Source: Pseudofrankia coriaricola (GTDB lineage: Bacteria; Actinomycetota; Actinomycetes; Frankiales; Frankiaceae). From it: a stretch of DNA of 33,882 bases. The position numbers and the translations under genes are program-made. Position 1 is the stretch's first letter. Every line of letters starts with the position of its first letter. A model generated the notes under the pieces. That model was not told the DNA's origin and did no database searches. It worked only from the letters and a program-made list of their open reading frames with translations. Shown one piece after another: positions 4,225-13,077 of this stretch. The DNA lies in assembly GCF_001854805.1 (NCBI RefSeq), contig NZ_MBLO01000065.1:1-33882 (forward strand), given 5' to 3'.

Positions 4225-5406
4225 ATGCGGCACGAGGGGAAGACCGAGGCGCGGCTGTCCCGCATCCGCGGATCCGAGCCGCCGCGGCGGCACAACGCGC
4301 GGACGATCGCGGCGCTGACCAGCAATCCGGGGTGCGCGCGGCGGGCGGTGCTGGACGCCGCTGGGGTCGACAAGGAACGGCTCGCGGAGCGGGTCGGCTT
4401 CCCGGCGGCGTTCGGTCAGTCGCGGTTCGCGATCGTGCGAGGCAACGCGTTCGAGCGTCAGGTCAAGGCTGACGGCTGCGCCGAGCTGCTGCGGCTGCTG
4501 CGCGACCTGCTCGCGCTGGACCTGCGCGACGCGGCGTACACCGACCTCGGCGCGGACGGTTCCGGGGAAGGCCTGGACGCCCGGCACGTCGCGGCGCGGG
4601 AGCGGCTGACCCGCGCGCCGGGCGGCGAGGACGGCGAGGGCAACCCGGGCGGCGAGGGCAACCCGGACGGGGCCCTGTTCGACCATCCGCTCCTGCGGCT
4701 GGAGGTGGCCGGGCAGGCGGTCTACCTCGAGCCCGACCTGGTGGCGTTCCAGCACGGCGGAGCGTTCCACGTCGTCGAGATCAAGTCGTTCCCGGTGATC
4801 GACGGGCAGGCGGACGCGGAGAAGGTCGCGGCGGCGGCGGTCCAGTCGGCCGTCTACGTCCTGGCGCTGCGCCGGCTGCTCGGCCGCGACGACGCCGTCT
4901 CGCACGAGGTGGTGCTCGTCTGCCCGAAGGACTTCTCCAATGTGCCGGTCGCGGTGCGCCTCGACGTCCGTCGCCAGCTCATCGTGCTGGAGCACCAGCT
5001 CGCGCGACTGACGCGGATCGACACCCTGCTCGACGCCCTGCCGGACGACCTGGCGCTCGATCTCGGGCAGGACGGTGCCGGGACGCCGGTGATGGCGGTG
5101 GACGCGCTGACGGCGGCACTCGGCCGGGTGACGGCGCGCTACGCGCCCGGGTGCCTGTCGACCTGCGAGCTGGCCTTCTTCTGCCGGCGGGAGGCCTCGG
5201 GGCGCACCGCCGCACTGGGGATCGGCGTCCGGGAGGAGCTGGGCGGGGTGGAGACCGTCGCCGAAGCGCTCGGGCTCGCGCACGGGACGGCGACACCCGA
5301 CGACGACCAGGCCGAGTCGGCGGCGATGCTGCGGACCACCGCGCGGGTCTACGCCGAGGCGCTCGGAGCCATGCCGGAGACGCCCGCGGGCGGGGCGGCT
5401 GGATGA
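4225..5406 (+). CDS. PD-(D/E)XK nuclease with Fe-S-type cysteines (RecB/Cas4/Dna2-like)
   Basis: A 393-residue protein starting at an ATG with GGAGGG about 6 nt upstream. The nuclease core is seen as EPDLV (Asp171) followed by VVEIKSF (Glu185, Lys187), the D...ExK signature of RecB-family exonucleases, with a GNAFERQV helix near residue 80 that fits the upstream conserved motif. Four cysteines frame the core: Cys37 near the N-terminus and C310-x3-C314-x5-C320 near the C-terminus. This is the layout of the [4Fe-4S] cluster in AddB, Cas4 and Dna2 nucleases (established for those families). A low-complexity Gly/Glu insert lies near residues 130-150. Its stop overlaps the next gene (ATGA), and an SF1 helicase lies two genes downstream, so it probably acts on DNA ends or flaps with that helicase. 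No cas genes or CRISPR are nearby, so it is not called Cas4. Confidence 0.75.
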   Translation: MRHEGKTEARLSRIRGSEPPRRHNARTIAALTSNPGCARRAVLDAAGVDKERLAERVGFPAAFGQSRFAIVRGNAFERQVKADGCAELLRLLRDLLALDLRDAAYTDLGADGSGEGLDARHVAARERLTRAPGGEDGEGNPGGEGNPDGALFDHPLLRLEVAGQAVYLEPDLVAFQHGGAFHVVEIKSFPVIDGQADAEKVAAAAVQSAVYVLALRRLLGRDDAVSHEVVLVCPKDFSNVPVAVRLDVRRQLIVLEHQLARLTRIDTLLDALPDDLALDLGQDGAGTPVMAVDALTAALGRVTARYAPGCLSTCELAFFCRREASGRTAALGIGVREELGGVETVAEALGLAHGTATPDDDQAESAAMLRTTARVYAEALGAMPETPAGGAAG

Positions 5407-7211
5407 GCGTGATCGGCGCGTACGCGCGGGCGCTGGCGGTGCGGACCGGGTTCGCCCAGCCGGTCGCGTCGGTTCGGCACATCCACCTCGCCGAGGCGCC
5501 ACTGGTGCTGGTGCCGCTGAGGATGGCCGGCGAGGCGAACGCGCCGCTCGCGGCCATGGCCGGCACCGACGAGCTCAGCGGGACCTTGCTCGTCGTCCCA
5601 CAGCCGCGCGACCGCGATCTGCGGTTCGCGTTCGCCGGCCTGCTCGGGGACCTTCTCCTCGGTTACGTCGAGCGGTGCGCGGCCGCGGGCAGCGAGCCGG
5701 TGAAACCACCGAGGACGCCGAGGCAGCCAGCCGGTAGGCCTCTGCCCGACAGCCTCCTGTCCGGCAGTCCCTCGTCCTCACCGGGTGGTGCCGGCGGTGC
5801 GGCGGTCGCGGCCGGGCCCGAAGGGACCGCCGGCGCCGCCGACGGAGACCTGCGCGCCGACGAGGACGCGCTGGCGGCGGCGGAAGCCACCGGGCCGGAG
5901 CGGTTCCTCGACGCGCCCCAGGTGCTGGTGCCCAACCGGGCCGGCGTCGAGTTCGCGCGGCTGTTCGGCCGGTCCACGCGGTTTCGCTCGACACTCGGGG
6001 AGTACGCGGTTCCGGCCGGGGTGCCGCTGCTGGGCCGGTGGCTCACCTTCCTCGCCCAGCGGGCCGAGCATCCGGGCTCGTCGGCGCTGGTGGCGATGAC
6101 GGAGGCGCTCACGCTGCACTGGGCGACCGGCCAGAGCGCGCTGGAGGACGCGAACCTTGCCGCGCTGATGGCCTGGATCGACCCGCCGGACGGCCTGTCC
6201 GGCCCCGAGGCCGCCCGGTTGGCCGAGGACCCGCGGACCTGGCCGCCGGCGGGTCCGACGACCGACCCCCAGTTCGACAACCGGGTGCTCGCGCCCGCCA
6301 TCGCGGCATACGACGAGGCGATCGCGCTGCTGCGGGAGCAGGCAGGGCTCGCCGGCGCTCCCGACCCGTTGCTGGCGGATCCGGACGTGATCGACAGCCG
6401 CTTCCGAGCCGCGGACCTCGGTGCCGCGCGGGTGTGGCCGGGGGCGCCCGACGCGCCGGTTCAGTCGTGGCTGCGCGCCCGGGACGAGGTCGAGCGCGCG
6501 GTGCGCGGGCAGATCGAGCCGACGTGGCGGCTGATGTGGCGGGCGGTGCGGCGGCTGCGCGAGCTGCCGGATGCGGCGTCCGTGCCGCGGCGCTGGGAGC
6601 AGGACAGGACGCGGTTCACCTCTTACTACGCCTACCTGCGGGACGAGGACGGCGGGCTGCCGCAGGCGCGACGCGACGGCGCGGTCGCCGCGGCCCGCCG
6701 CCTCGCCGTGCTGGAGCGAGAGCTCGCCGCGTACGAGGCCGACCAGGCCTTTGACGACCCGCTGGTGCTCGCGAACCAACGGGTGACCGGCGACGCCTTC
6801 GTAGGCACGGTGGTCGCCGCCGAACGGGACCGCCGGATCGCGAACGAGCGCGGAACGCTCGTCACCAGGCCCCTCGTCGAGGTGGTCACGGTGGACCCGG
6901 TCCGGCTCCCGATCGGTACGAAGGTCTGCTCACCCGCGCGGGTCGGCCAGACCGGGGTGATCATGTCGCTGGAGCCGGCGGCGGACGGGCTGCTGGTGTC
7001 GCTGGAGCTCAGCGGCGGGATGGGGCGGGCGAAGGTGCCGCCGCCGGGCAGTGTCCCGGACATGGACGAGGTGATCAGCTACACCAGCGTGCTGCCGGAC
7101 GGCGCGTTCTCCGCCGCGCTGCCCGCGCCCGAGGACACTCCCTGGACCCACGGCGGGCCGCCGACACCCTATGAGCCTACCGACGGCGACGCCGAGGAGA
7201 CCTGGGCGTGA
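5403..7211 (+). CDS. Protein of unknown function in the nuclease-helicase operon; possible helicase accessory (stalk and barrel) module
   Basis: A 602-residue protein whose ATG overlaps the stop of the nuclease gene by 4 bp, implying coupled translation. No enzymatic motif, Walker motif or membrane segment is visible. An N-terminal mixed alpha/beta part (residues 1-95) is followed by a Pro/Gly/Ala linker (about 97-150). A long helical part follows, with Trp-containing charged stretches and a likely coiled segment at 415-455. A beta-rich piece lies at about 485-550 (VEVVTVDPVRL, GTKVCSPARVGQTGVIM) and the tail is acidic. In UPF1/Dna2-type helicases a stalk and beta-barrel (domain 1B) precede the Walker A motif. 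The end of this protein could supply that missing piece for the next gene; this is inference from order and composition only. Confidence 0.7.
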   Translation: MSVIGAYARALAVRTGFAQPVASVRHIHLAEAPLVLVPLRMAGEANAPLAAMAGTDELSGTLLVVPQPRDRDLRFAFAGLLGDLLLGYVERCAAAGSEPVKPPRTPRQPAGRPLPDSLLSGSPSSSPGGAGGAAVAAGPEGTAGAADGDLRADEDALAAAEATGPERFLDAPQVLVPNRAGVEFARLFGRSTRFRSTLGEYAVPAGVPLLGRWLTFLAQRAEHPGSSALVAMTEALTLHWATGQSALEDANLAALMAWIDPPDGLSGPEAARLAEDPRTWPPAGPTTDPQFDNRVLAPAIAAYDEAIALLREQAGLAGAPDPLLADPDVIDSRFRAADLGAARVWPGAPDAPVQSWLRARDEVERAVRGQIEPTWRLMWRAVRRLRELPDAASVPRRWEQDRTRFTSYYAYLRDEDGGLPQARRDGAVAAARRLAVLERELAAYEADQAFDDPLVLANQRVTGDAFVGTVVAAERDRRIANERGTLVTRPLVEVVTVDPVRLPIGTKVCSPARVGQTGVIMSLEPAADGLLVSLELSGGMGRAKVPPPGSVPDMDEVISYTSVLPDGAFSAALPAPEDTPWTHGGPPTPYEPTDGDAEETWA

Positions 7212-7302
7212 CGGCCGGAGCGAGTGCGGCGACGGAGCGAACCCGAGATGCGGCGAGCGCCGCCGCGCGGGTGCCGCCGACGCCTCGGAAGGGGACCCGG
7301 GC

Positions 7303-8724
7303 ATGCTGACCGTCCGGCCCGGTCCGCGCGACTCGCCGGCGGCCCTGGCCGCGCGGGTAACGGACGCGATCCTGGCGGACCTGCGGTCGCGGCGGCACCG
7401 GGGAGTGGTCGTCGACTCGCCGCCGGGGGCCGGCAAGTCGACGCTGGTGGTGCGGGCCGCGACCGAGTTCGCGCTGGCCGACGAGCCGCTGATGATCGTC
7501 GCGCAGACGAACGAGCAGGTCGACGACCTCGTCGAGCGGCTCGCCGCGGACCTCGCCGACAAGGCGCCCGAGGCGCGGGTCGGCCGGCTCGGCCGCGCCG
7601 GCTACGTCCCACCGCCGCGGATCGACGGGCTGCCGAACGTCGCCGTCGGCAGCGACCTCAGGACGCTGGGAGATCCGCACCTCGTCGTCGCGACCGCCGC
7701 CAAGTGGGCCTACGTGAAGGACCGGGCCTGGCGGTGGGCGATCGTCGACGAGGCCTACCAGATGCGCTCGGACGCCTTGCTGGCGATCGCGAGGCTGTTC
7801 GAGCAGGCGCTGTTCGTCGGCGACCCCGGCCAGCTCGACCCGTTCTCCACCGTCGACAACGACCGCTGGCGCGGCCTGACGTGGGACCCGATGCAGAGTG
7901 CCGTCGCCGTTCTGCTGCGCAGCAACCCGGACCTGCCCGTGCACCGGCTGCCGGTGTCGTGGCGGCTGCCGCGCAGCGCGGAGCGGGTCGTCGCCGACGC
8001 GTTCTACCCGTTCACCGGCTTCCAGACCGGCAACGGACCGGGCGATCGTCTGCTCACCTTCACCGGCACGTCCCGCCCCGGCGCGGCTGGCCCCGGCACG
8101 GCGCGTGCCCGCCCTGGCGGCTCGGGCGGGACGCTGGGCCGCGCGCCGGCCGGAGCGGTCGACGACGTGCTGGACATGGCGGCGGCGACCGGATGGGGAC
8201 TGCTGGAGCTGCCCGCCCGGCACACCCTGCGGACCGACGCCGAAGCGGTGCGCGCGGTCGCGGACGTCGCCCGGCGGCTGGTGGCCCGCGGCGCCGTGGC
8301 CCGCTCGCTCGACCGCGGCGGCGAGGAGCATCCGGTGACGGCGAGCCGGATCGCGATCGGCACCGCTCACCGCGACCAGGCGGCGGCGGTGCGCGCCGCG
8401 CTCGGCGACGACCTGCCGGGTGTCGTCGTCGACACCGCCAACCGGCTGCAGGGCCGGGAGTACGACGTGACGGTCGTGCTCCACCCGCTGTCGGGCCGCC
8501 GGGACGCGACGGCGTTCCACCTCGAGGCCGGCCGGCTGTGCGTGCTGGCGTCGCGGCACCGCCAGGCGTGCGTCGTCGTCGCCCGCGCCGGCATCCGCGA
8601 CCTGCTCGACACCCACCCGTCCGGCGAGCCCGTCCACCTGCACGAGCCGGTCCGTTTCCCCGACGGCTGGGCCGCGAACCAGACCGTGCTGGCCCACCTG
8701 GAACGCCACGCGGTCCGGCTGTGA
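7303..8724 (+). CDS. Superfamily 1 helicase core (UPF1/Dna2-like)
   Basis: A 473-residue ATPase. The ATG at 7303 is chosen because GGAAGGGG lies about 8 nt upstream and the helicase starts at once. Motif I (Walker A) is PPGAGKST with Lys45, motif II is IVDEA (Asp149, Glu150), and motif III is GDPGQLDPF (residues 173-181), the Q-L form typical of SF1. Motif IV is VSWRLPRSAERV, motif V is ANRLQGREYD, and motif VI is VLASRHRQA with arginines 418 and 420. The two RecA-like domains are nearly bare: there is no N-terminal barrel or accessory domain, and a Gly/Ala-rich insert lies near residue 265. It sits 91 bp after the unknown protein in the same orientation. With the Fe-S nuclease two genes upstream, the set recalls Dna2, in which both activities share one chain. 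Confidence 0.8.
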   Translation: MLTVRPGPRDSPAALAARVTDAILADLRSRRHRGVVVDSPPGAGKSTLVVRAATEFALADEPLMIVAQTNEQVDDLVERLAADLADKAPEARVGRLGRAGYVPPPRIDGLPNVAVGSDLRTLGDPHLVVATAAKWAYVKDRAWRWAIVDEAYQMRSDALLAIARLFEQALFVGDPGQLDPFSTVDNDRWRGLTWDPMQSAVAVLLRSNPDLPVHRLPVSWRLPRSAERVVADAFYPFTGFQTGNGPGDRLLTFTGTSRPGAAGPGTARARPGGSGGTLGRAPAGAVDDVLDMAAATGWGLLELPARHTLRTDAEAVRAVADVARRLVARGAVARSLDRGGEEHPVTASRIAIGTAHRDQAAAVRAALGDDLPGVVVDTANRLQGREYDVTVVLHPLSGRRDATAFHLEAGRLCVLASRHRQACVVVARAGIRDLLDTHPSGEPVHLHEPVRFPDGWAANQTVLAHLERHAVRL

Positions 8725-8963: not shown

Positions 8964-9809
8964 GTGGATGGGACGGGCACGGCGCCGGTGGAGGTGCTGC
9001 GCGCCGAGGGCGTCGACCTGGTGCGGGGCGGGCGGTACCTGCTGCGCGGGCTCGACCTGACCGTGCGGGCAGGGGAGCACTGGACGCTGCTTGGCTCGAA
9101 CGGGGCGGGCAAGAGCACCCTGCTGGGCCTGCTCGGCGCCGTGAACCACCCGACACGCGGCACGGTGCGCGTGCTGGGCCGCCAGCTCGGCAAGGTCGAT
9201 GTCCGCACGCTGCGCGCCGACATCGGGCACGTCAACCCGCGCCACCCGCTGCTGTCGCCGCTGACGGTACGTGAAGTCGTCCTCACCGGTGCGACGAGCA
9301 CGATTGACCTCGTTCCCCGCTGGACGCCGTCCGCCGAACAGGAGGGCGACGCCGACGAGCTGATCGACCTGCTTGGTATCGATGGCCTCCGGGACGCGCG
9401 CTGGCCGGACCTGTCGCAGGGCGAGCGCGGGCGGGCGCTGATCGCCCGCGCGCTCATGCCCCGCCCCCGGCTGCTGCTCCTCGACGAGCCGACGACCGGC
9501 CTGGACGTGGCCGCCCGTGAGCAGCTGCTCACCGGGCTGGACGAGCTGCGCGCCGAGCACCCCGACCTCGCGAGCGTCCTCGTCACCCACCACCTCGAGG
9601 AGATCCCGGCGAGCTCCACGCACGCCGTGCTGCTGCGGGCCGGCGAGGTGGTCGCCTCCGGCGACATCGACGAGGTGCTGACCACCGACCGGGTGAGCGC
9701 CTGCTTCGGCCACCCGATCCGGGTCGCGCGCCTCGACGGCCGCTTCGTCGCCCGCGCCCAGCCCGGCCGTTCCCTCACGGACCGCCGCTCCCGGCCCGCA
9801 CAACGCTAG
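8964..9809 (+). CDS. ABC transporter ATP-binding protein, stand-alone
   Basis: A 281-residue ABC ATPase. Walker A is GSNGAGKST (Lys50), the Q-loop region reads DIGHVNPRHPLL, the signature is LSQGERGRA rather than the usual LSGGQ, Walker B is LLLLDEPTTGLD, and the H-loop His lies in VLVTHHLEEI. The GTG at 8964 has GAGGTGG about 7 nt upstream; the frame is open further up to 8847, but that part looks non-coding. No permease or binding protein is adjacent. The altered signature and HHLEEI ending resemble single ATPases of the YlmA/ModF-like group. The substrate is unknown. The gene ends exactly in the first copy of the 69-bp repeat, whose initial TAG is its stop codon. Confidence 0.88.
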   Translation: MDGTGTAPVEVLRAEGVDLVRGGRYLLRGLDLTVRAGEHWTLLGSNGAGKSTLLGLLGAVNHPTRGTVRVLGRQLGKVDVRTLRADIGHVNPRHPLLSPLTVREVVLTGATSTIDLVPRWTPSAEQEGDADELIDLLGIDGLRDARWPDLSQGERGRALIARALMPRPRLLLLDEPTTGLDVAAREQLLTGLDELRAEHPDLASVLVTHHLEEIPASSTHAVLLRAGEVVASGDIDEVLTTDRVSACFGHPIRVARLDGRFVARAQPGRSLTDRRSRPAQR

Positions 9810-9944
9810 AGGGCCAAAGGGCGTGCGAAAATGATCTTCCTTCGCACGCCCGGCGGCCGTTGTCCCCAGGATCACTAGAGGGCCAAAGGGCGTGCGAAAA
9901 TGATCTTCCTTCGCACGCCCGGCGGCCGTTGTCCCCAGGATCAC
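9807..9944 (+). repeat. Two tandem copies of the 69-bp hairpin repeat
   Basis: Identical units at 9807-9875 and 9876-9944, each with the perfect 11-bp-arm hairpin (9819-9851 and 9888-9920). The TAG opening the first unit is the stop codon of the ABC ATPase gene. The period of 69 is divisible by three, so the minus strand reads as a repeated 23-residue peptide, which I consider incidental. A further block at 1-94 is in the same orientation, so 26-9944 is flanked by direct repeats. A transcription-termination or REP-like role is inferred from position. Confidence 0.9.
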
Positions 9945-10037
9945 TGAGGGGCGTCCCGGCGCGTGGCCCCGCGGGCACGCGTGTCAGGGAGGGCGCCTGC
10001 CAGCGCAGGGCGGGCCCGTGCCAGGGCAGGGGCGGCG

Positions 10038-10277
10038 TCAGCTGGCGGGGCCGCAGGCAAAGGCGGGGTCTTCGGCGGCCGGGCCGGGCGCCGCCGCCCG
10101 CGCGGCGGCAGGCTGGGGAGCGTGGGCGGCGGGGGCCGCCGCGGCACAGGTGCGGTAGGACGGAGCGCCGACGCCGGCACAGGCCGCCCAGGTCAGGAGG
10201 CAGCCGGCGGCGACGGCGACCAGCCAGAGCAGCTGCGTGCCGCCTGGCTCAGGGGCGCGGGCACGGTCATTGGTCAT
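10038..10277 (-). CDS. Small single-pass membrane or secreted protein, Ala/Pro-rich
   Basis: A 79-residue protein with GAGGAG five bases upstream of its ATG. A charged N-terminus (MTNDRARAPEPGG) is followed by one hydrophobic segment at about residues 15-35, LLWLVAVAAGCLLTWAAC, then a low-complexity Ala/Pro tail containing two more cysteines, in a YRTC segment and a FACG segment near the end. This suggests an anchored or exported small protein with a tail outside the membrane. The family is not recognised. The good ribosome-binding site and natural topology support it, but compositional bias means it could be spurious. Confidence 0.5.
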   Translation of the reverse strand: MTNDRARAPEPGGTQLLWLVAVAAGCLLTWAACAGVGAPSYRTCAAAAPAAHAPQPAAARAAAPGPAAEDPAFACGPAS

Positions 10278-11133
10278 CGCGGCTCCTCGGGGACTGGCTG
10301 GGACGTGGCGGGTGGGGCCGCCAAGCGGTCCGTGGCGCGTCCCGCTCGACGCTGGGTGGGGTACTGGTGCGGACGCCGGGTATGTGGGGTGATGACAGAG
10401 ATGTGGATCGCCGTGGGTTTGACAACGGCGGCGAGGCGGACGGGGAAAGCCGTTGGCTGAAACCTGAAATCGGGCCGCGGCGCGTAACCCGGGCGATAGG
10501 CGCGGCCTCGGCATGGCGGCGCCCCGGCGCGTCGCGCGAAACGGTGGAACGCCAGGTGGTGGGGAATGGCGCGCCTGACGGCCGTCGCGCCGGACAGATA
10601 TCTCGCTGGACAAACATCGCGCCACACCAGGCCGTCGGTTGTCAGGTGCGCGCCCTGGGGTGCGGTGTGGAGGCGACGATAGCCGGGGTCGGGGAAACCG
10701 GCAAATGGCGGCGTTTGCGCGCGGGGACCGCGCCGACCACGCCGGATAGGTAGGCAGAGCCGCCTGAGCGGCGGGGCCCGGTGACGGTATGTGGCGTCGC
10801 GGCGCGGTCGGCGCCGGGATGGCGGGCTGCGCGGCCCGACGGGTGCCCGATCGGGTAGGTGTCCGCTCGGCGGGGGCCCCAGCCGTGGCGGCGCCCCCGC
10901 GGCCGTCGGCGGGGGCGGTGAGTCGGGGAGGACACCGCTGGTTGGCCGTGCGACGGCGGGGCTGGTCGGATGTGTTCTCCTCGTTACCGTTGGCAGGCAT
11001 CGGAGGGTGACCAAGCGGCCGGGACGTTCGGGCGGGACGTAGAGCTTTCGATCGATCACTTTATGTGATCTTCGTACGGGTGGTTCCCTCGATCGGCGCG
11101 CGATACTTGGTTGGCGCGCCCCGATCCGGCACG
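10278..11133. other. Long intergenic region without a supported gene
   Basis: About 850 bp between the small membrane protein and the NYN gene. Several frames are open because of high GC content, notably a 262-codon frame on the minus strand, but they are Pro/Arg-rich without domains or ribosome-binding sites. Local features are an AGATATCT palindrome near 10593-10600 and the GATCAC/GTGATC inverted repeat at 11054-11070. The region may hold regulatory RNA or degraded genes; I see no proof of either. Confidence 0.4.
11054..11070. promoter_or_regulatory. Inverted repeat upstream of the NYN gene, candidate operator
   Basis: GATCACTTTATGTGATC has perfect 6-bp arms around TTTAT and lies about 65 bp upstream of the chosen NYN start, in locally AT-rich sequence unusual for this window. 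It could be an operator or part of the promoter. The binding factor is unknown. Confidence 0.35.
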
Positions 11134-13077
11134 ATGGCCGACATGAACGCGGTGGGTGAGGGACAGCAGGGCCCGTTACGGGTCCGCAGCGCCCTGTTCG
11201 TCGACTTCGAGAACATCCACATGGGGCTCCAGCGGCTGGATCCCGCCGCCGCCAACCGGTTCGCGGTCAATCCGCAGGGCTGGCTCGGCTGGCTGGAGAA
11301 GCTCGGCTATCCCGCACTGGCATCGGACGACTTCCGCCGCGATCTTCTTATTCGGTATTGTTATCTCAACCCGGTGAGCTCGGCCCGTTACCGAGCCTAT
11401 TTCACGCGGGCGGGCTTCCACGTCGTCGACTGCCCGCCGCTCACCGCCGCGGGGAAGAACTCGGCCGACATTCACATCGTCATCGATGTTCTGGACATCC
11501 TCGTTCATCCGACCCGGTTCGACGAAGTCATCCTGCTGTCGGCCGACGCGGACTACACCCCGGTCATGCTTCGACTGCGCGCCCACGACCGCCGAACGGT
11601 GATCATCACGAGTGGGCCGTCGGCCCGGGCGTTCCGCGCGGCCTGCGACCACGTGGTCGGCGAGGACGCGTTTATCGACGAGGCGCTGTCCGCCGACTCC
11701 CGGCCGCTCAGCAGCAACGGCGGCGCGCATGGCTACAGCGGTACACAGAGCTACAGCGGTACACAGAGCTACAGCGGTACACAGAGCTACAGCGGTACGC
11801 ATGGCTACGGCCACGACGCCACCCCCGCGCTGAACGGGGTCGGCCACGCGGCCGGCCATGTCGCCAGTCCGCCGGGCATGGCGGTGCATCCGGGCGAGGC
11901 GGGCGCGCTCGTCCACGCTGGCCAGGCGACACCCGAGGCGGCGGACCCCGCCCCATCCGCCGCGGACCGGCCGGCGAGCGACCCGGCGGCCGGCAACCCG
12001 GCCGGCGCCGGCGCGGTGCCCGACAGGCAGTGGGAATCCCACGCTGACGGCCCCGTGCGGTCCTTATCCACGTCCACCGACGTCACCACGGGGCACTTAT
12101 CGGTGCCCCCGCGCTACCTCGCGTCCCCGCGGCCGTCGCCCGCATCGCCCCCGCACTCCCCGGCGTCGCTGCCGGTGCCGACGCACCCGCCAGTGCCGAC
12201 GCATCCGGCCCTCCCCGGGTTCGTACCGATTCCGGCACCGCCGAACGGCCAGTACGACGGCCAGCTGCGCCGCGTCATCGCCGCGAAGGTCGGCGGACTG
12301 GTCGCCGCGTCCGACCGGCCGATCACGCTGGCGTCGGCCGCCCAGCTGGTGCGCGCCGACCTCGGCCAGGACGTCACCGACGGCTGGGCGGGCACCGGCT
12401 CGTTCAAGAAGCTGCTCGCCCAGGCCGACCTGCCGGGGCTCGCGATCTCCGCCGCGCCGGAGTACATCTACGACCCGCGCAGGCACAGCCCCCCGCCCAG
12501 CGGCCAGACCTCCGGCGCGGGCCAGCCCGACCAGGACGGCCCGCGCTTGGACCTCGTCAACCGGATCTCGCAGGTCACCGACATTCCGCGGCTGTCCGCG
12601 CGCGAGTTCCGGGCGCTGTTCGAGGAGCTCGCCGCCGAGGTCGCCGAGCACGGCTTCAGCCGCACCGGCACCTCGCGCGCCGTCCGCGACCGATGCGCCG
12701 AGCGCGGTGAGCACGTCGGCCGGGGCGCGGTGAACTTCGTCCTCAACGGTCTGCTCTACGCCGGCCGCCCGCCGCGCCCGGGCGACGACGCGGGCACACT
12801 GGCCTGCGCGTTCGCCGACAACGCCATCGTCCTGTGCCAGAACGCGCGGATGGAGCTGTCCGCCGACGAGGTCGCCCACCTGCGCGCCTGGATCGTCGAC
12901 GCGCCGGTCGTCGTCGCCGACGCCCCCACCGAGCGTGCTGAGCCGGCTGAGCCCGCCGTTCCCGCCGGGCCGATGTCCGCCGCTGAGCCGGCGGCCCCTG
13001 CCGAGCCGGCCGCCCTCGCCGAGCCGGCTGTCCCTGTCGAGCCCAGCGCCGATCTGGTCGGCCAGGCCGGCGCGTGA
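11134..13077 (+). CDS. NYN-domain ribonuclease-like protein with LOTUS/OST-HTH-like module
   Basis: A 647-residue protein. The NYN (PIN-like) domain at residues 17-185 shows FVDFENIH (Asp24, Asn27), the central acidic cluster NSADIHIVIDVLD (Asp112, Asp118) and LLSADADYTPVM (Asp138, Asp140), the metal-binding acidic residues of this nuclease fold. A linker rich in Ser/Pro/Ala follows and includes four copies of a GYSGTQ-like hexapeptide. Residues 376-450 (LRRVIAAKVGGLV through GSFKKLLAQADLPGL to PEYIYDP) match the pattern of LOTUS/OST-HTH RNA-binding modules that accompany NYN domains in LabA-like proteins. A further helical domain (485-600) and a Pro/Ala/Glu repeat tail end the protein. It likely cleaves or binds RNA in the cytoplasm. 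The start is uncertain: the ATG at 11134 lacks a strong ribosome-binding site, and the frame is open from 11065. Confidence 0.8.
   Translation: MADMNAVGEGQQGPLRVRSALFVDFENIHMGLQRLDPAAANRFAVNPQGWLGWLEKLGYPALASDDFRRDLLIRYCYLNPVSSARYRAYFTRAGFHVVDCPPLTAAGKNSADIHIVIDVLDILVHPTRFDEVILLSADADYTPVMLRLRAHDRRTVIITSGPSARAFRAACDHVVGEDAFIDEALSADSRPLSSNGGAHGYSGTQSYSGTQSYSGTQSYSGTHGYGHDATPALNGVGHAAGHVASPPGMAVHPGEAGALVHAGQATPEAADPAPSAADRPASDPAAGNPAGAGAVPDRQWESHADGPVRSLSTSTDVTTGHLSVPPRYLASPRPSPASPPHSPASLPVPTHPPVPTHPALPGFVPIPAPPNGQYDGQLRRVIAAKVGGLVAASDRPITLASAAQLVRADLGQDVTDGWAGTGSFKKLLAQADLPGLAISAAPEYIYDPRRHSPPPSGQTSGAGQPDQDGPRLDLVNRISQVTDIPRLSAREFRALFEELAAEVAEHGFSRTGTSRAVRDRCAERGEHVGRGAVNFVLNGLLYAGRPPRPGDDAGTLACAFADNAIVLCQNARMELSADEVAHLRAWIVDAPVVVADAPTERAEPAEPAVPAGPMSAAEPAAPAEPAALAEPAVPVEPSADLVGQAGA
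11732..11803 (+). repeat. 18-bp in-frame tandem repeat in the NYN gene
   Basis: The unit GCTACAGCGGTACACAGA occurs three times perfectly and a fourth time with two changes near its end. It encodes a Tyr-Ser-Gly-Thr-Gln-Ser type hexapeptide repeat in the linker after the nuclease domain. Near-identity at the DNA level implies recent expansion, so copy number may vary between strains. Confidence 0.9.

Follow-up and report, generated by a model that had tools for sequence, protein, structure and literature searches.

The three genes and their products

A 33,882-nucleotide stretch of the Pseudofrankia coriaricola genome (contig NZ_MBLO01000065.1 of assembly GCF_001854805.1, positions 1 to 33,882), referred to here as the window, carries three genes that in our assessment probably encode a Dna2-like helicase-nuclease complex split over three chains. 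Gene 1 (4225..5406, plus strand, 393 amino acids) encodes a RecB-family PD-(D/E)XK nuclease of the iron-staple type, gene 2 (5403..7211, plus strand, 602 amino acids) a middle protein that belongs to no known family, and gene 3 (7303..8724, plus strand, 473 amino acids from its likely start) a UPF1-like SF1B helicase core. An earlier note on this DNA had read the genes in the order nuclease, middle protein and helicase, and this reading is real: all three frames are open at these coordinates and on the same strand. The overlap that it described between genes 1 and 2 amounts to 4 bp (ATGA) and recurs in 71 of the 114 related loci compared here (34 plus 80, with a few contigs counted in both sets; start codons were chosen automatically). 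The longest frame of the helicase (7171-8724, 517 amino acids) has to be shortened; because relatives lack most of the longer N-terminal extension, the most likely start is at 7303, at the ATG that follows GGAAGGGG.

Residues of gene 1 were counted in 114 distinct sequences, some of which differ only in the chosen start. The predicted metal site (D171, E185 and K187 in LEPD ... EIK; 4735..4785, plus strand) is retained in 113, 112 and 112 of them, respectively, and both residues of Q207-x3-Y211 (4843..4857, plus strand), which we take to be the RecB-family motif, are retained in all 114. With D, ExK and Q-x3-Y in place, gene 1 has the complete active site of a PD-(D/E)XK nuclease. Four cysteines are predicted cluster ligands, one N-terminal and three C-terminal to this core, the codon of C37, the first, lying at 4333..4335 and those of C310, C314 and C320 at 5152..5184 (both plus strand). 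The combination of C37, C310-x3-C314-x5-C320 and D...ExK had been recorded previously and is present as written; moreover, the four cysteines do not vary among homologues, C37 being cysteine in 113 of 114 sequences (the remaining one is unreadable, X) and the other three in all 114. The classic iron-staple pattern is C-x2-C and that of gene 1 is C-x3-C; the most distant relative in the nuclease alignment A1 (L051, 35% identity) has C-x2-C-x5-C. We infer from this sequence pattern that the nuclease binds a 4Fe-4S cluster. In the nucleases of two loci, L050 (4974-6092) and L220 (9020-10135), E185 is replaced by leucine and K187 by arginine, and all four cysteines are kept.

The AlphaFold2 model of gene 1 (m197d1e85c076) has a mean predicted local distance difference test score (pLDDT) of 91.3 and a predicted template-modelling score (pTM) of 0.88. 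Its Foldseek ranks 1-8 are occupied by Cas4 SSO0001, MGME1, RecE and Dna2, with probabilities of 0.84-1.00 and E-values of 2.4e-3 (Cas4 SSO0001) to 9.2e-3 (Dna2 at 8.7e-3). Cas4 of a Cas4/1/2 complex appears at rank 16 and EXO5 at rank 41, and the lower matches also include TDP2 and viral cap-snatching endonucleases. In sequence searches of Pfam, NCBIfam and PADLOC, the window gene 1 was assigned to no family; Pfam PDDEXK_1 is weakly matched by 6 of 26 relatives (best E 0.0024), beside other scattered weak matches. In the PDB its sequence hit two designed proteins and gave a weak match to one viral envelopment protein; these matches were judged to be due to chance.

Gene 3 contains the motifs SPPGAGKST, DEAYQ, GDPGQLDPF, VDTANRLQGRE and GRLCVLASRHR, with Walker A (PPGAGKST) at 7420..7443 and motif II (DEAYQ) at 7747..7761 (both plus strand). 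Pfam AAA_11 and AAA_12, among others, score above cut-off, and a profile of 18 gene 3 sequences finds SMUBP2 (4.5e-13) and DNA2 (5e-13) as its leading matches in the PDB. Two proteins, P0004 and P0005, are presumably TM0106-type single-chain nuclease-helicases of actinobacteria, and gene 3 aligns with a single-chain enzyme of this type at a probability of 98 and an E-value of 6e-14. Gene 3, with its SF1 motifs and its kinship to UPF1, SMUBP2 and DNA2, is a UPF1-like SF1B helicase core and, as had been noted before, has no N-terminal barrel. Walker A lies 39 residues from the likely start codon, and among 18 aligned helicases it is preceded by 27-54 residues in 13 and by 65-116 in five (start choice was automatic); because so few residues precede Walker A, the stalk and beta-barrel must be absent from the chain that holds 1A and 2A.

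The middle protein is the candidate for supplying these parts, as the earlier note had suggested. The window gene 2 has no family in Pfam, NCBIfam or PADLOC, its relatives give scattered weak Pfam matches, and a PDB sequence search returned nothing. Its model (m705e284ebe76; mean pLDDT 85.1, pTM 0.84) comprises an alpha/beta N-terminal half, long helices at residues 350-462 (6450..6788, plus strand), a beta-barrel with strands at 465-561 (6795..7085, plus strand) and a less confident tail. From the fold matches given below, we propose that the helices form the stalk and the barrel domain 1B of a helicase. In the tail, residues 573-587 (7119..7163, plus strand; block pLDDT 61-69) include a near-invariant TPWTHGGPP motif (T579-P587, 95-98% identical in 58 sequences), possibly a docking peptide.

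Four of the six top PDB folds for gene 2 in Foldseek are senataxin (Setx) or Sen1, both UPF1-like helicases, at weak E-values of 0.06-0.13. Setx (8ftm_B, E 0.061, probability 0.89) ranks first and Sen1 takes ranks 3, 4 and 6 (5mzn, 0.90; 8rao, 0.91; 8ram, 0.85), ranks 2 and 5 being unrelated proteins with probabilities of 0.05 and 0.13. Among the best 50 of 406 matches, five reach a probability of 0.80 or more, these four and a riboflavin synthase. The TM-scores are low (at most 0.13), as is expected because the match covers part of a large chain; since the alignments span 140-166 columns and gene 2 has no helicase motifs, the match probably falls in the helices and barrel. Comparison by hhalign with a 30-sequence alignment of domain 1B from TM0106-type helicase-nucleases gave the expected register at an E-value of 0.04, which is not significant, and 1 of 60 block-shuffled decoys equalled the score. 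A viral fold library yielded no match at E ≤ 0.001, and none of the 50 matches listed was a helicase. The suggestion that the middle protein supplies stalk and barrel gains from the helices and barrel of the model and from the Setx and Sen1 folds, which also argue against a fold foreign to helicase accessory domains, and is held back by weak E-values and a borderline profile score.

It might be supposed instead that gene 2 encodes an unrelated protein that binds DNA or acts as a scaffold, that gene 3 is a self-sufficient SF1B helicase without a barrel, like RecD2, and that the complex is not Dna2-like. RecD2 indeed lacks barrel and stalk in the available text of PMC4716839, gene 2 residues 1-345 match nothing found, and the equation of the barrel with domain 1B is weak by both fold and profile E-values. 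We nevertheless regard this explanation as improbable, given that SMUBP2 and DNA2, the best solved relatives of gene 3, carry a barrel (barrel described in the same text, PMC4716839) and that Setx and Sen1 fill four of the six top folds of gene 2 even though it is without helicase motifs.

Distribution and linkage of the three genes

A scan of GTDB contigs confirmed at least 578 relatives among at least 598 candidate stretches, and the best 80 were kept; the closest named locus is that of Pseudofrankia asymbiotica (L057, 88% in the best segment). The nuclease and middle genes are adjacent in 114 of 114 loci, 93 of which include the helicase in the fetched stretch. In 82 of these 93 it follows the middle gene in the same direction at less than 1 kb, and in the remainder it is on the opposite strand (seven loci) or beyond a larger gap (four, the gap in L024 being an artefact of start choice). 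For the other 21 loci it lies outside the fetched stretch, which in some cases runs up to a contig end. As genes 1 and 2 are conserved as proteins and always adjacent, with the helicase in 93 loci, the three-gene set is not a chance arrangement.

In an even sample of 393 genomes of the class, raw matches numbered 70 for the nuclease, 70 for the middle protein and 69 for the helicase (counted at E ≤ 1e-60). After short marginal matches in G171 (nuclease, E 7.8e-4) and G109 (middle protein, E 3.8e-4) were dropped, the three genes occupied the identical 69 of 393 genomes. All three are present at two places in five genomes (G119, G139, G208, G251 and G349); other genomes with multiple matches have genes in pieces (for example, G002, G007, G008, G023, G078, G306 and G356), and the second nuclease match of G391 is short and marginal. 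The three genes are therefore co-conserved, and the two-copy genomes agree. Across the phylum, the middle protein was found in 14 of 396 genomes, every one of the window's class; these distributions refer to Actinomycetota samples. Gene 2 also occurs in three plasmid records. No viral relatives turned up when viral contigs were scanned for patterns from genes 1 and 2, a type of scan limited to close relatives, or when phages were searched with gene 1.

Separate functions for three genes that merely happen to be neighbours would fit the displacement of the helicase in genomes of one genus (g65, presumably Micromonospora) and in Actinoplanes-type loci. Such independence is very improbable, as the genes share the identical 69 genomes and the same five two-copy genomes, and the relocated helicase is still retained in both genomes tested.

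Genomic surroundings

The earlier note had placed the operon among gene remnants and flanking repeats, as in an island. This holds only in part: there is one perfect tandem pair of a 69-bp repeat (9806-9943), but the repeat is dispersed genome-wide, and the neighbours of the operon are constant in close relatives. The window's genome has 57 matches to the repeat, partial ones counted, of which 47 are 64-70 bases long with 97-100% identity, several of them in tandem or at contig ends. A further copy lies at 25-93 of the window, and the repeat includes an 11-bp inverted repeat (GGGCGTGCGAA / TTCGCACGCCC). Downstream of the operon, an NYN-domain gene (11065-13077, a predicted RNase) is kept near it in the other loci of the genus whose stretch reaches that far. 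Among 41 relatives, the nuclease is present in 13, comprising 8 of 8 members of the window's genus, 5 of 5 of the sister genus (probably Parafrankia) and 0 of 28 others. Because all sampled members of both genera have the nuclease, with common neighbours, an island or prophage origin of the window copy was rejected in favour of inheritance with the genus; an island setting does apply to some copies in other genomes.

A fourth gene, C3 (about 255-290 amino acids; for example, L055 10721-11563), lies directly 5' of the nuclease in 69 of 114 loci. C3 is helical at its N-terminus and contains a conserved SLRRDEERS region, and no Pfam family scores above cut-off; a search of 12 genomes recovered the operon's own copy in six and no C3 in the remaining six, among them the window's genome. 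SbcC and SbcD adjoin the operon in 11 of 114 loci, either divergent upstream (L043, L045, L047, L051, L054, where they are in pieces, and L055) or co-directional downstream (L059, L063, L081, L093 and L111). Wadjet genes follow the operon in four loci (L043, L047, L054 and L055). L054 and L055 come from two Streptomyces plasmids whose records list DUF3375, DUF4194, SMC-like and JetD products and label genes 1 and 2 'hypothetical protein'. G349 is a single 8.87-Mb contig, and its L224 (4965-18947; the L047 copy) is situated 14-19 kb from the contig end; JetA, JetC and JetD were called beyond the operon. This copy, on a chromosome-sized contig, and those of the two plasmid records are all near ends, by Wadjet and SbcCD genes.

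L223 (the L043 copy and the only copy in G257) has SbcCD neighbours together with JetA2, JetB2 and JetC2 of Wadjet II, and in both G119 and G251 the copy with C3 adjoins SbcCD and an HA-domain helicase (the helicase was scanned in G119). At L222 in G208, the same place as L050, the nuclease of the operon looks inactive, and its neighbours are a divergent PD-(D/E)XK gene, a gene for a ResIII helicase and one for an N6/N4 methylase with a type III score. In L220 of G139, a divergent gene begins with nearly the same residues as that of G208, and an SNF2/NOV-type helicase lies downstream. Separately, three loci of one genus (L046, L048 at 9725-10480, and L052) have a gene with a Prim-Pol domain after the operon.

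These neighbours bear on the explanation that the whole family, the chromosomal copy included, is a restriction-like defence system and not a repair enzyme. Seven additional copies, those of the two plasmids and the C3-bearing copy of each of the five two-copy genomes, speak for it: three lie beside Wadjet I (both plasmids and G349) and two beside SbcCD and the HA-domain helicase (G119 and G251), and the other two (G208 and G139) adjoin a divergent gene and a helicase of the ResIII or SNF2 type. The divergent gene is a PD-(D/E)XK nuclease in G208 and is known in G139 by its like N-terminus only. The type III-like methylase of G208 and the sole G257 copy, beside SbcCD and Wadjet II, point the same way, as does Bad of Geobacillus, which adjoins a type III-like methylase in the available text of PMC7430649. 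For the window's genus, the sister genus and most other loci, however, the fetched stretch holds no SbcCD or Wadjet genes, neighbours are common within genera, the viral and phage searches described above (the scans reaching close relatives only, the phage search made with gene 1) gave no relatives, and PADLOC-DB is without a model for genes 1 and 2. A defence role for the entire family is unlikely. We consider that the chromosomal copy probably serves as a housekeeping enzyme of DNA-end processing and that some further copies, with the fourth gene, may have been recruited into defence islands, as their neighbours suggest.

Discussion

The reading that we favour as likely is that the operon encodes a Dna2-like helicase-nuclease complex distributed over three chains. 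Gene 1 would supply the Fe-S nuclease and gene 3 the 1A-2A motor. Gene 2 would be a scaffold whose C-terminal end forms the stalk and beta-barrel (domain 1B) of a UPF1-like helicase, and the three chains would assemble in the manner of Dna2. The motor would run 5'→3' on single-stranded DNA, the strand passing the barrel into the nuclease tunnel to be cut there, and DNA ends and 5' flaps would be the substrates that the complex resects or degrades, with SbcCD (Mre11-Rad50) as a partner in some lineages.

Several results weigh against this reading. No fold match of gene 1 or of gene 2 reaches E ≤ 0.001 in Foldseek, the gene 2 profile did not align significantly with single-chain relatives, and neither did the nuclease profile with the one compared. 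Covariation between the proteins (91 sequence sets, effective sequence number, Neff, 48) placed 37 of the top 50 middle protein-helicase pairs in the C-terminal part of gene 2, where 26 would be expected; because the nuclease-middle protein pairs showed a like excess (31 against 26), these counts are uninformative at this Neff and allow no conclusion. Operon linkage is not universal: middle gene and helicase are about 36 and 49 kb apart in the two g65 genomes tested (G114 and G206), and the helicase is on the opposite strand in seven Actinoplanes/Paractinoplanes loci. No open frame in the 114 loci matched two of the models, as a fusion of any two genes would, and no SbcCD or Wadjet genes were found next to the window's copy. 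The overall interpretation of the earlier note is partly supported: none of the three refutations that it proposed came true, co-conservation, the cysteines, the folds and the gene order speak for it, the barrel link rests on folds with weak E-values and a borderline profile, and the island setting fails at this locus.

A bolder joint reading would see in these genes a modular DNA2, evolved in actinomycetes, whose UPF1-type motor is cut between 1B and 1A. One three-chain machine would repair chromosomes, in places together with SbcCD, and a duplicated four-gene version of it would complete immunity by destroying linear DNA just opened by Wadjet or a restriction system; in one branch the nuclease would have lost E and K and the neighbouring PD-(D/E)XK enzyme would do the cutting. 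Taken as a whole, this is a tentative possibility that we consider rather doubtful.

Dna2-type enzymes are known as single chains, and no literature on a split Dna2 or on this operon was found in open-licence PubMed Central articles. If the split version is true, nuclease, barrel scaffold and motor could be separately removed, swapped or inactivated, which would permit a direct test of the barrel's job and of why the nuclease hides the helicase of Dna2. Streptomyces and its relatives would also gain a helicase-nuclease that had gone unannotated; many soil actinomycetes carry the three-gene set, sometimes beside anti-plasmid and restriction genes, and its recurrent company with SbcCD and Wadjet suggests a testable fate for DNA once Wadjet has linearised it.

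Comparison with known systems

AddB, Cas4, MGME1 and EXO5 share the PD-(D/E)XK core with gene 1, and we know of no link between them and a split helicase of this type. The TM0106-type enzymes are closer, with a cysteine-bearing N-terminal region and a UPF1-like helicase part, the latter aligning at the E-value given above for gene 3; they differ in being one chain with a different central domain, and the gene 1 and gene 2 profiles have no significant alignment to them. According to the available text of PMC7430649, Cas4, AddB and Dna2 have a common four-cysteine arrangement, and Bad of Geobacillus stearothermophilus unites an Fe-S nuclease, 5'→3' motor activity and a central domain of unknown structure in one chain, its unwinding being masked by its own nuclease. 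As described there, Bad resembles the present set in its four-cysteine iron-staple RecB-family nuclease and SF1B helicase, in the order nuclease, central region and helicase, in a central region without known relatives and in the type III-like methylase beside its gene, as beside the G208 copy here. Unlike Bad, compared here by its published description, the set consists of three genes, found only within one Actinomycetota class in our samples (other phyla were unevenly sampled).

In eukaryotic Dna2, as the available text of PMC4716839 describes it, a barrel on a two-helix stalk lies between nuclease and helicase, and the strand, on leaving the helicase, passes the barrel and enters the nuclease tunnel. 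The set differs in its three chains, in the roughly 345 additional N-terminal residues of gene 2, which matched nothing, and in gene 1, where no OB domain was recognised, no dedicated search having been made. Because none of the 114 loci has nuclease and helicase in one polypeptide, the three proteins are not strict members of the Dna2 or Bad type. They share with Dna2 an Fe-S nuclease (the cluster is predicted here), a helicase part of about 450 residues and, at times, the company of SbcCD, the Mre11-Rad50 homologue. The gene layout agrees with the resemblance to a split Dna2 that the earlier note had seen: with gene 2 taken as the barrel and stalk part, the gene order equals the Dna2 domain order of nuclease, barrel with stalk, and 1A-2A helicase (PMC4716839, as far as available) in 82 of the 93 helicase-holding loci, and by analogy the three proteins may work as Bad and Dna2 do.

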